Shown piece by piece: positions 2,354 through 32,893 of a stretch of DNA of 36,622 nucleotides (position 1 is the stretch's first letter; each line of letters begins with the position of its first letter). This DNA is from Hyphomicrobiales bacterium. Its GTDB lineage: Bacteria; Pseudomonadota; Alphaproteobacteria; Rhizobiales; Xanthobacteraceae. The translations under genes were made by a program, and so were the position numbers. The DNA lies in assembly GCA_009377695.1 (NCBI GenBank), contig WHTP01000057.1, forward strand, positions 1 to 36,622. Reading direction: 5' to 3'. Below the pieces are notes generated by a model. The model was not told the origin of the DNA, ran no database searches, and saw only the letters and a list, made by a program, of their open reading frames with translations.

Positions 2354-2438
2354 GAATGCTAGTGTCCCGATTCCGAAGGTCGTGCCATTTCGCCGCGGCC
2401 TCGTATGCGACCTTCGGAATCGAAGGACGCTAGCATTC
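2354..2438 (-). repeat. CTAG-bounded hairpin element E1 (reverse orientation)
   Basis: The CTAG-to-CTAG core is 2359-2433. The outer stem GCTAGTGTCC pairs with GGACGCTAGC, extended by GAATG/CATTC outside. The inner stem CGATTCCGAAGGTCG pairs perfectly with its complement and can extend by two G.T pairs, leaving a 21-nt loop. The unpaired AA is on the right arm, which sets the reverse orientation. Read in that orientation the loop centre is CCGCGGCGA. Confidence 0.85.
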
Positions 2439-2445
2439 TTTGAAT

Positions 2446-2523
2446 CTAGTGTGGGTTTGGTTCAGAAGTCCGCATGTCGGACTCGCTGAGAAAATGATGC
2501 GGACTTCTGAACCGCCACACTAG
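2446..2523 (+). repeat. CTAG-bounded hairpin element E2 (forward)
   Basis: A 78-bp element. The outer stem is CTAGTGTGG/CCACACTAG and the inner stem is GGTTCAGAAGTCCGCAT with its exact complement. The loop is 21 nt with centre TCGCTGAGA. The left-side bulge is GTTT against a single G on the right. It shares its terminal CTAG with E3. It belongs to the same stem class as E7 and the half-copy E9. Confidence 0.9.
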
Positions 2524-2596
2524 TGGTCCGATTCTAACATTCGCATCCCTTCTCAGCGGGCGACTTTGCGAATGTTAGAATCACAAGGACCACTAG
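2520..2596 (-). repeat. CTAG-bounded hairpin element E3 (reverse)
   Basis: The outer stem is CTAGTGGTCC/GGACCACTAG and the inner stem is GATTCTAACATTCGCA with its exact complement. The loop is 21 nt and, on the reverse strand, its centre is CCGCTGAGA. The unpaired ACAA lies on the right arm, i.e. TTGT on the left arm in reverse orientation. CTAG is shared with both E2 and E4. Confidence 0.9.
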
Positions 2597-2670
2597 TGCG
2601 GTGGATTTGACGTTCGTACCAGTGTTGCTGCGAGTTCGTAGTACGAACGTCAAATCCAAAACCGCACTAG
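2593..2670 (-). repeat. CTAG-bounded hairpin element E4 (reverse)
   Basis: The outer stem is CTAGTGCGGT/ACCGCACTAG and the inner stem is GGATTTGACGTTCGTAC with its exact complement. The loop is 21 nt and its reverse-strand centre is TCGCAGCAA. The unpaired AAA is on the right arm. Confidence 0.9.
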
Positions 2671-2682
2671 CACCAATGAGTT

Positions 2683-2758
2683 CTAGTGTCCCTTTGGTTC
2701 CGACGCTTGTAAACGCATGTGCGGCAAGGTGATACAAGCGTCGGAACCGGGACACTAG
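2683..2758 (+). repeat. CTAG-bounded hairpin element E5 (forward)
   Basis: The outer stem is CTAGTGTCCC/GGGACACTAG. The left bulge is TTT with nothing opposite. The inner stem is GGTTCCGACGCTTGTA with its exact complement. The loop is 21 nt with centre GTGCGGCAA. Confidence 0.9.
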
Positions 2759-2771
2759 CAAATATAAGCTG

Positions 2772-2851
2772 CTAGTGGAGTTTTGGATTTGACATTCGCT
2801 TTGGGAGTCTGCGGTCAACGGGGGTAGCGAATGTCAAGTCCACTCCACTAG
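2772..2851 (+). repeat. CTAG-bounded hairpin element E6 (forward)
   Basis: The outer stem is CTAGTGGAGT/ACTCCACTAG with a left bulge TTT. The inner stem is GGATTTGACATTCGCT, paired throughout with one T.G wobble. Counting two weaker loop-side positions as stem leaves a 21-nt loop whose core is TGCGGTCAA, offset by one from the others. It is the last of the cluster and ends 73 bp before the next gene. Confidence 0.88.
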
Positions 2852-2923: not shown

Positions 2924-5215
2924 GTGACAATGAGTACGTCTGAGCTGCCGACAAGCGAAGCCCCACAGCGTGCCGCCGTCGCATCCTACGGCTTGCTACT
3001 GCTCACGTTCATCGCGGCCATTTTCGTCAGTGCCGCGCTCCTGTTCGCGGTGCAGCCGATGTTTACAAAAATGGTGCTGCCGCGGCTCGGCGGCGCGGCG
3101 TCGGTGTGGTCGGTGGCGATTGTGTTCTTCCAGACCACGCTGCTCGCAGGTTACGCCTACGCGCATCTGTTGACGCGCTTCCAGCCGGGCCGCAGCTCCG
3201 TTATCATTCATCTCGTCGTGCTCGCATCCGCTTGCTTCTTGCTGCCGCTGCATATCGCAAGCGGATGGGGCCGGCCGCCGCAGGTCGGCGAGGCGTTCTG
3301 GCTACTCGGCCTGTTCACCGTATCGATCGGTTTGCCGTTCTTCGCGTTGTCGGCAAATGGTCCGTTGCTGCAGGCCTGGTTCGTGCGCACCGGTCACCCG
3401 GATGCGAAGGATCCATATTTCCTCTACGCGGCCAGCAATGTCGGAAGCTTTCTGGCGCTGATCGCCTATCCGGTCGCGGTCGAGCCGTTCGTACGGCTCG
3501 GTGATCAGACGTGGCTGTGGACAGCGGGCTATTACCTGCTGATCGCGATGGTGGCGGGCTGCAGCCTTCTGATGCTGCGCTCGCCGAACCGGCTGCCGGA
3601 TGCGGTGGCGTCTGACACGACTCCTGCGGTGACGCCGAGCTGGCGGGACGCCGCGATCTGGGTCGCGCTTGCGGCGGTGCCCTCCGGGTTGCTGATTGCG
3701 GTGACCGCGCACATCTCAACCGACGTGGCGGCGGTGCCGTTGTTCTGGACGATTCCGCTCGCGATCTACCTGCTGACCTTCGTCATCGTCTTTCAGACCA
3801 AGCCATTCATTCCGCATTGGCTGGTCGTCGCCGTCCAGCCGGCGTTCGTGTTGTTCCTGGTCATCGCGATCCTGATGATCCCGATCGAGTCGATTGTGCT
3901 CCAGATCGTGATTCATCTCAGCGTGTTCTTCGTCTGCGCGCTGATGTGCCATGGCGAGCTCGCCCGCCGCCGCCCGCCGCCGCAGTTCCTGACCAGCTAC
4001 TACATGTGGATTTCGTTTGGCGGCATGGTCGGCGGTATTCTGACCGGTCTCGTCGCACCGCAGGTCTCCAGCCGCATCATCGAATATCCGCTGCTGGTCG
4101 TGCTCACGCTCTTGTGCCGGCCGGGCTTCACACTGCCGACGCGAGGCAGCGGCCAGTATCCGCTGCTGTTGGCGGTCGCCGTTGCAGCACTGCTGCTCAT
4201 CGGGATGGCGGCGGTGGACATCCGGCTCGACACGCCGCTTTATGCGGTGGCGGTCGGTTTCCTGCTCGGACTGACGGTGCAATTCTGGAAGACGCCGCTG
4301 CCGTTCGCAGCCATTGTGGCGATGCTGTTCCTGGTCAACCACTACAACAACTACATCACCAGCAATTATCTCGTACGCAACTTCTTCGGCGTGCTCAATG
4401 TTGTCGAGGCGTCCGACGACCGCTTCCGCGTGCTCTATCACGGCACGACGGCGCAGGGCGCCCAGCGCATCCGCGATTACGACGGCAATCTGCTCACGGG
4501 CCGCCCGGACATGGTGTCCGAATTCCATGACGGCGGCGGCTTTGCGCAGGTGGTCGACGCGATGGAGAAGAAGGCCGGTGGACCGATCAACATGGCGGTG
4601 ATCGGGCTCGGTACCGGTGCGCTCGCCTGCCGTGGCAGCGCCGGCACGACGGTGACCTTTTACGAGATCGACGCCGACATCGCACGCATCGCACGCGATC
4701 CGAGCCTGTTCAACTATATTTCGGAGTGCGCGCCCAAGACACAGATCGTCATCGGCGATGCGCGCCTGACGCTCGCCGATGCGCCCGACGGCTCATATGA
4801 TCTCTTGTTCGTCGATGCGTTCATCGGCGCCGCCATTCCGGTTCATCTGCTGACGCGCGAGGCGCTCGAGCTCTATTTCCGCAAGCTCAAGCCCGGCGGC
4901 ATCGTCGCGATGCACGTGTCGAACCGCAATCTTGAGCTCGCTACGGTTGTTGCCGGGATCGCGCAGGCGAATGGCGCGATCGTGCGGGTCTATGATGGGG
5001 GCGACATCGACGAAGATGTCGACGAGCACCGCTGGATTCCGACCATCGCGGCAGTCGCGCGCAACGAGGCAGACTTCGGGTCACTGGCCAAATCGGAGTT
5101 TTGGCCGATCCGTGAGCGGGACCCGCACCAGCGGGTTTGGACCGACGACTATTCCAACATCGTGGGTGCGCTGCTGCGCCACCTGCGGTCGCGGCAGGTC
5201 AGCAGCGATGAATAA
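2924..5215 (+). CDS. Integral-membrane spermidine-synthase-like protein
   Basis: A 763-aa protein. About the first 500 residues hold a dozen or so hydrophobic helices. The C-terminal third is a Rossmann methyltransferase-like fold of the spermidine synthase family: GLGTGAL near residue 560 for nucleotide binding, the acidic YEID strand end, GDARL, and DLLFVDAF followed by a GGIVAMHVSNR strand. Such fusions are usually labelled fused MFS/spermidine synthase; the substrate is unknown and no polyamine-forming activity is proven by sequence. GTG at 2924 or ATG at 2930 are both plausible starts; the six-element repeat cluster lies directly upstream. No operon partner is on the same strand. Confidence 0.8.
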   Translation: MTMSTSELPTSEAPQRAAVASYGLLLLTFIAAIFVSAALLFAVQPMFTKMVLPRLGGAASVWSVAIVFFQTTLLAGYAYAHLLTRFQPGRSSVIIHLVVLASACFLLPLHIASGWGRPPQVGEAFWLLGLFTVSIGLPFFALSANGPLLQAWFVRTGHPDAKDPYFLYAASNVGSFLALIAYPVAVEPFVRLGDQTWLWTAGYYLLIAMVAGCSLLMLRSPNRLPDAVASDTTPAVTPSWRDAAIWVALAAVPSGLLIAVTAHISTDVAAVPLFWTIPLAIYLLTFVIVFQTKPFIPHWLVVAVQPAFVLFLVIAILMIPIESIVLQIVIHLSVFFVCALMCHGELARRRPPPQFLTSYYMWISFGGMVGGILTGLVAPQVSSRIIEYPLLVVLTLLCRPGFTLPTRGSGQYPLLLAVAVAALLLIGMAAVDIRLDTPLYAVAVGFLLGLTVQFWKTPLPFAAIVAMLFLVNHYNNYITSNYLVRNFFGVLNVVEASDDRFRVLYHGTTAQGAQRIRDYDGNLLTGRPDMVSEFHDGGGFAQVVDAMEKKAGGPINMAVIGLGTGALACRGSAGTTVTFYEIDADIARIARDPSLFNYISECAPKTQIVIGDARLTLADAPDGSYDLLFVDAFIGAAIPVHLLTREALELYFRKLKPGGIVAMHVSNRNLELATVVAGIAQANGAIVRVYDGGDIDEDVDEHRWIPTIAAVARNEADFGSLAKSEFWPIRERDPHQRVWTDDYSNIVGALLRHLRSRQVSSDE

Positions 5216-13709: not shown

Positions 13710-13737
13710 ATGCGGACTTCTGAAACCGCTACACTAG
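13710..13737 (+). repeat. Right half of a CTAG hairpin element (E9)
   Basis: ATGCGGACTTCTGA-AACCGCTACACTAG matches the right arm of E2 with small differences. No left arm is found upstream, so the element is truncated. Its CTAG provides the TAG stop codon of the minus-strand lipoprotein gene. Just upstream, GCGAATTGGAGAGC-like sequence occurs twice (13675-13700). Confidence 0.8.
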
Positions 13738-32727: not shown

Positions 32728-32805
32728 CCAGTGTGGCGGTCCAGAAGTCCGCATTATTCTCGCGGCGAGTCTGACATGCGGACTTCTGAACCAAAGCCAC
32801 ACTAG
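32728..32805 (-). repeat. CTAG-bounded hairpin element E7 (reverse)
   Basis: A 78-bp element. The left end is CCAGTGTGGC (one base off CTAG), the right end GCCACACTAG. The inner stem GGTCCAGAAGTCCGCAT pairs with the right arm with one mismatch. The loop is 21 nt; the reverse-strand centre is TCGCCGCGA. The unpaired AAA is on the right arm. Its stems and loop closely match E2 in opposite orientation. Confidence 0.88.
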
Positions 32806-32818
32806 ATTCAAACAGTTG

Positions 32819-32893
32819 CTAGTGTCCTTCGATTCCGAAGTTCGTAAATGAGCGCGCTGCAAGACGATACGAACTTCGGAATCAGGACACTAG
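32819..32893 (+). repeat. CTAG-bounded hairpin element E8 (forward)
   Basis: The outer stem is CTAGTGTCC/GGACACTAG with a left bulge TTC opposite A. The inner stem GATTCCGAAGTTCGTA has an exact complement. The loop is 21 nt with centre GCGCTGCAA. It ends 21 bp before the gyrA start codon, so it lies in the gyrA leader. Stem class as E1. Confidence 0.9.

Follow-up and report, generated by a model that had tools for sequence, protein, structure and literature searches.

Head-to-head hairpin pairs at CTAG sites as a probable mobile DNA element of Alphaproteobacteria

The CTAG-bounded hairpins of a Hyphomicrobiales bacterium are best explained as a small, non-coding and non-autonomous mobile DNA element, a two-hairpin unit that inserts at CTAG and is moved by an enzyme acting in trans, a reading to which we assign a probability of about 0.6. 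Under this explanation each unit would consist of two long hairpins with related yet different stems, placed in opposite orientation and carrying CTAG at each foot, and it would enter an existing CTAG and end with CTAG borders on both sides. The CTAGs of earlier copies would also serve as targets, which would lead to nested arrays, and the trans-acting enzyme would recognise the folded hairpins as DNA, either as a single strand or as a cruciform. The explanation starts from direct observations, namely a fixed unit, nesting at CTAG, an empty site, a high copy number and feet that remain paired despite sequence change. As the mover we lean towards an enzyme that recognises the hairpins in their folded form, since inner arms and linker length are preserved in the same way as the outer ends. 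Head-to-head pairing and nested insertion, both absent from the initial annotation of this DNA, decide the nature of the element.

Anatomy of the hairpins and of the unit

The window, that is the whole analysed stretch of 36,622 nucleotides (contig WHTP01000057.1), carries eight hairpins and a half copy, all found where the initial annotation had placed them (2359–2851, 32728–32893 and 13710–13737). Each hairpin is composed of an outer stem of about 9–10 bp, a one-sided unpaired stretch (AAA or similar), an inner stem and a loop, and the one-sided bulge gives it a polarity, so that E1, E3, E4 and E7 point one way and E2, E5, E6 and E8 the opposite way. Their predicted RNA folding energies range from -36.9 to -47.3 kcal/mol.

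Three units, A (E1 and E2), B (E3 and E6) and C (E4 and E5), occupy positions 2359–2851, with unit C sitting inside unit B at a CTAG. Unit A begins with the type I hairpin E1 (2359–2433, plus strand), which has a stem of the GATTCCGAAG-TTCG class, here with GGTCG, and a loop of 25 nt; a 12-nt linker without strand (2434–2445) connects it to the type II hairpin E2 (2446–2523, minus strand; stem GGTTCAGAAGTCCGC, loop of 21 nt). The CTAG at 2520–2523 is common to E2 and to E3, the first hairpin of unit B (2520–2596, plus strand; stem GATTCTAACATTCGC), and one CTAG is likewise common to E3 and E4. Unit C is inserted at the CTAG that closes E3, and is made up of E4 (2593–2670, plus strand; stem TGGATTTGACGTTCG), a strandless linker of 12 nt (2671–2682) and E5 (2683–2758, minus strand; stem GGTTCCGACGCTTG), which ends with the CTAG at 2755–2758 and thereby returns into unit B. 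What follows is the 13-nt linker of unit B (2759–2771, no strand), cut off from E3 by unit C, and the second hairpin of that unit, E6 (2772–2851, minus strand; stem TGGATTTGACATTCGCT, loop of 25 nt). The half copy is a single arm of an E2-class hairpin (13710–13737, minus strand). Further downstream, the E2-class hairpin E7 (32728–32805, plus strand), a 13-nt linker without strand (32806–32818) and the E1-class hairpin E8 (32819–32893, minus strand) form one A-type unit between marC on the minus strand and gyrA on the plus strand.

Several dimensions were originally given too narrowly. The loop, described as exactly 21 nt long, has that length in six of the eight hairpins and measures 25 nt in E1 and E6, and a fixed 21-nt loop does not hold as a family trait, since loops run from 8 to 31 nt in other fetched samples and shrink to 3–6 nt in the units of two genomes from one other family. 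The inner stem, put at 16–17 bp, actually spans 15–18 bp, with one mismatch each in E6 and E7, and CTAG-type ends are present on both feet of seven hairpins, the exception being E7, with CCAG as its left foot. The proposed loop motif YGCNGMRA was borne out in a much larger set, where 206 of 410 hairpin loops contain it, 144 of them at position 9, compared to 2 of 410 shuffled loops; it is also found in 118 of 410 reverse-complemented loops, because the motif is nearly palindromic. The units with loops of 3–6 nt (G116 and G334, loci L366–L372 and L361) follow the same plan, so the architecture can do without the loop, and in a viral contig (L421, around 4870–4912) a type I hairpin has lost nearly all of its loop and its arms almost abut.

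The pairing of hairpins was assessed over 412 distinct hairpins whose inner arms have 12 pairs or more and no more than one mismatch, loci L069–L075 being excluded; decayed copies go uncounted in this set because the feet had to resemble CTAGTG. Of the 175 adjacent pairs that it contains, 165 are arranged head to head and 10 in tandem. Their linker is 13 nt long in 125 pairs, 12 nt in 33 and 14 nt in 11 (12–14 nt in 169 of 175), and the unit length falls within 164–169 bp in 168 of the 175. The partner of most hairpins in the fetched loci is of a different stem class and points the opposite way. With the 498-base stretch as query, a BLAST search within the own genome, for which 40 of 473 candidates were scored, returned E1 and E2 alone in at least 26 places (87–93% identity), E4 and E5 alone in at least seven (93–99% identity) and E3 to E6 in at least four places beyond the window. 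The mobile unit is thus a pair of hairpins of differing stem class, arranged head to head around a linker of 12–14 nt.

Nested copies, empty site and distribution

The order in the window is E1-E2 followed by E3-[E4-E5]-E6, and other loci present the same units in other combinations. At L005 and L013 the E3 and E6 classes are joined without E4-E5, with CTAG at the junction. An E3-E6 unit is nested in an E1-E2 unit at CTAG at L026, and L027 has an E1-E2 unit nested in an E4-E5 unit, one side of which contains one extra base (CTAGACTAG). In addition, the E7-E8 site upstream of gyrA is empty in a relative (G007), which aligns by eye without gaps across the site; CTGG stands there in place of the CCAG and CTAG that flank the unit in the window. 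Another relative (G001) has CCGG at the same place and requires one 1-base gap in an alignment made by eye; the near flanks have diverged in these alignments, and G007 is the only gapless empty site outside other units. A model built from the eight hairpins of the window (R1) identified no hairpin at the E7-E8 site in either relative. The intergenic stretch of G007 that is equivalent to the location of E1–E6 also lacks a hairpin, and another unit lies about 0.9 kb upstream of its empty gyrA site. Near that intergenic stretch, the same genome contains a 17-base piece resembling a type I arm directly before a terminator-like hairpin (L394, around 1272–1290), perhaps the remnant of a unit.

An empty site holds one CTAG-like tetranucleotide and a filled site has CTAG on both sides, the unit's own feet being CTAG as well; with CTAG in the unit and in its target alike, the number of duplicated bases is unreadable. 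At the level of sequence, the nested copies and the empty site directly yield both the mobile unit and its CTAG target; CTAG, at first taken as a mere boundary of the hairpins, is the insertion site. On the nine Roseibium/Labrenzia plasmids described below, the CTAG foot of the unit (L405, 1501–1504; L405–L413) provides the TAG stop codon of the preceding gene, annotated as an SDR oxidoreductase.

The search for further copies was productive, as the R1 model recovers them with E of about 1e-22 for one genome and detects at least 150 hairpins in the own genome. A 400-kb sample of that genome contains 54 hairpins in 12 of 20 stretches; it was drawn mostly from contigs with known matches, and the genome would hold several hundred hairpins in total if it is representative. 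At E values up to 1e-4, matches are present in 19 of 60 relatives (20 of 61 with the own genome) and in 20 of 384 other sampled Alphaproteobacteria (21 of 385 with the own genome), and none was obtained in 24 sampled genomes from other families of the order. Among the matches listed, one stem class has hosts in Bradyrhizobium, Afipia, Nitrobacter and Hyphomicrobium, and further in Caulobacter, Phenylobacterium, Pseudorhodoplanes and a Rhodospirillales bacterium. Two intergenic regions carry hairpins in different genomes across genera, yet the stem classes differ.

Searches of phage and plasmid records with the window sequence gave no match. When three foreign units were compared with plasmids, two had no match and one, from a Phenylobacterium locus, matched nine Roseibium/Labrenzia plasmids, in all of which the unit has an identical pair of neighbour genes. 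IMG/VR supplied six loci for each of two patterns, eight distinct ones overall, and none of the four that were read is a long element. Of the 54 hairpins in the 400-kb sample, 48 fall outside long ORFs compared to about 22% of random positions, and the 41 hairpins with two called neighbours, which were called crudely by ORF length, are flanked by tandem genes in 24 cases, divergent genes in 12 and convergent genes in five. In a genome of another family (G069, L352 near 4612), a unit is situated shortly upstream of an ORF that looks gyrB-like by eye, comparable to E7-E8 and gyrA.

Stem covariation and rival explanations

The claim of the initial annotation that both arms change together was confirmed with the 150 best matches (80 loci, 146 distinct rows), and with it the view of a family whose structure is conserved and whose stems covary. 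In an alignment fitted to the model, 95.3% of the cells are paired (79.5% in shuffles), 24 of 26 pairs have changed on both sides (15.8 in shuffles) and 604 cells are doubly changed (182.5 in shuffles), in a set whose loci were mostly picked by one type I stem and whose rows are related, so that cells are not independent events. None of 500 shuffles reaches the observed values, and slid structures give 28–133 doubly changed cells. Neither outcome that would have spoken against such a family, a lack of further copies or arms that fail to covary, was seen.

Covariation extends to the feet. CTAG is present twice in 313 of the 412 hairpins, one side is changed in 63, and where both sides are changed the feet are exactly complementary in 20 hairpins and not so in 16. 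When the outer six pairs are tallied position by position, complementarity is kept in 46 of 47 double changes, in a set for which the finder prefers feet that pair and in which a single class supplies much of position 5. Changed feet co-occur within one hairpin in 21 units (10 and 11), a single changed foot is seen in 29 units, and both outer ends of a unit are changed in five units only and are never equal; in units where two or more feet are changed, 28 hairpins have both of theirs changed, and these comprise 17 exact matches and 11 that do not match. Judged by these counts, the foot changes are unlike the decay of a target duplication.

A structured RNA or an RNA-level regulatory element (stabiliser, terminator or sRNA) that became repeated by chance would also account for the strong stem covariation and for the position of 48 of the 54 sampled hairpins outside long ORFs, and other bradyrhizobial repeats appear in transcripts according to the consulted parts of one report (PMC5082802). 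Yet G-U and A-C mismatches are even in both orientation tests, with 74 and 75 when counted by hairpin polarity and 37 and 45 when counted by unit orientation (140 units oriented by their linker, 35 set aside). There is no RNA-strand signature here, because G-U fails to exceed A-C as action of RNA from one strand would predict. Furthermore, Rfam gave no match at the gathering score, and convergent neighbours make up only 5 of 41. Of the two readings first offered for these hairpins, the structured RNA gained no support from these tests and a folded DNA substrate may hold; nothing favours an RNA strand, and we regard an RNA element as very improbable.

The covariation by itself may have another source. 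In template switching at quasipalindromes, one arm is copied onto the other, and such arm-onto-arm copying, rather than a selected fold, could have kept the stems paired whatever moves the unit. It would suit the complementary changes found even at the CTAG feet, where an insertion site should not vary, as well as the missing strand signature. It is less easily reconciled with the orthologous plasmid copies, nine in number, as two of the five that were aligned share one-sided stem changes; these changes persist, and therefore pairing repair is not quick. Arm copying is accordingly a tentative possibility with somewhat less than an even chance. The fold is kept, and either selection on the DNA hairpin or copying from arm to arm may be the source.

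With regard to the mover, no mobilising enzyme or autonomous element was recognised beside the units, no transposase was seen by eye in the 25 and 30 largest protein clusters beside them, and the neighbours of units in low-copy genomes likewise included none recognisable by eye. The hairpins might be mere terminal repeats of an ordinary MITE that depends on a DDE transposase with a CTAG target, for example of the IS5 family. Elements of the IS870/IS427 type have CTAG as their target, and the CTAG on either side of a unit fits a target duplication. In the own and related genomes, IS5-type (DUF4096) elements lie between CTAGs at 6 of 48 loci under the criterion applied (L283, which belongs to the own genome, L288, L293, L295, L299 and L433), and a CTAG target duplicate of an IS is mentioned for Bradyrhizobium in the portion consulted of another report (PMC8692435). 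The terminal repeats of these six elements are nevertheless unlike the unit ends, and a search for a parent element that shares the unit ends, which covered the 48 DUF4096 loci and the surroundings of the units, found none. DUF4096 itself is equally spread, with hand counts of 14 among the 20 hairpin-bearing genomes and 28 among the 41 others, so there is no association; moreover, paired inner arms and a fixed linker are unnecessary for a plain MITE, and the foot changes do not resemble those of a target duplication. An ordinary MITE is consequently considered unlikely, though a more serious candidate than a REPIN-like element dependent on a Y1 (RAYT) transposase, which we hold to be the least probable of all. 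The latter draws on the head-to-head hairpins and spacer, which resemble REPIN anatomy, and on Y1 genes in some of these genomes. Against it, Y1_Tnp is not associated with the hairpins (7 of the 20 hairpin-bearing genomes compared to 10 of the 41 others; Fisher p 0.54), the unit ends lack a GTAG tag, and the seven Y1 loci that were scanned contain no CTAG hairpins, other palindromes being found in three. At L070, L072 and L073, Y1 loci of G010 and G022, a different palindrome, TTGAGCGCAGCGAAA with its complement, stands near the Y1 genes as in ordinary REPs.

Relation to known repeats and CcrM sites

Two families of intergenic repeats invite comparison, CIR, reportedly introduced by Chen and Shapiro in 2003 as Caulobacter CcrM-associated intergenic repeats, and RIME, said to have been named by Osteras in 1995 for Rhizobium-specific intergenic mosaic elements. 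RIME elements are about 130 bp long and contain two large palindromes; compared by description only, they resemble the units as repeated intergenic elements of Rhizobiales. According to the consulted part of a review (PMC2229807), the CIR repeats of Caulobacter and Brucella are about 110 bp long and have two arms joined by a linker, a GANTC site located at or close to one terminal loop, and TA at the ends, and their target duplication and mobility mechanism were left open there. The units share with CIR, as described in that part (PMC2229807), an intergenic location in alphaproteobacteria, two long inverted repeats that serve as arms on either side of a linker, no reported coding capacity, and TA termini, which correspond here to the CTAG that 313 of 412 hairpins carry on both feet. 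CIR has GANTC in one arm, and here it usually occupies one hairpin per unit, with 5 of 10 in the family sample. The units differ from CIR in their length (164–169 bp in 168 of 175, and shorter with loops of 3–6 nt) and in the position of GANTC, which here occupies both arms of one hairpin where its inner stem begins, and a CTAG target, nesting and a head-to-head rule are absent from the CIR description in the same part of the review (PMC2229807). We read the units as a new variant of the CIR/RIME kind rather than as members of CIR, from which the published CIR descriptions would set them apart.

The REP and REPIN repeats, including the GTAG and CGTC repeats of Bradyrhizobium, are also short inverted-pair palindromes with intergenic location and high copy number, whereas the units lack a GTAG or CGTC tag, have hairpins of 75–80 nt instead of 20–40 and show no Y1 association (compared with the part consulted of PMC3733652). 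Similarly, Br-REP1 and Br-REP2 of Bradyrhizobium japonicum are intergenic palindromes of the same bacterial group with a differing consensus, and neither the Br-REP1 consensus nor the 15-nt Br-REP2 core, as given in the consulted part of PMC5082802, has an exact match in the window. The units are MITE-like in being small, non-coding, intergenic and of high copy number with inverted outer ends, and unlike MITEs as outlined in the portion consulted (PMC10969869) they have two complete hairpins each and no parent element that was found. No description of CTAG-bounded paired hairpins came to light in the literature searched, in which subscription papers were thinly covered.

A broader view, which we consider conceivable rather than probable, is that the units represent a kind of two-hairpin mobile DNA widespread in Alphaproteobacteria, to which CIR and RIME may also belong. 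An undescribed enzyme that reads DNA hairpins largely by shape would insert it at CTAG, and its stems would diversify into many classes while the fold, the linker length and, for the majority of lineages, a single CcrM site in each unit are retained. If CIR and RIME are of the same kind, what moves them becomes testable in laboratory strains with recent copies.

The tendency of units to hold GANTC, the CcrM site, in one hairpin suggests a link with CcrM methylation. With duplicate overlapping loci removed, GANTC occurs in a stem arm of exactly one hairpin in 14 of 17 units from the own genome, 14 of 15 from the class and 5 of 10 from the family, and in 75 of 91 named units, a sample itself picked by a GATTC pattern. 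In the window, both arms of E1 and of E3 contain GANTC, and in these two hairpins as well as in E8 it is positioned at the inner-stem base.
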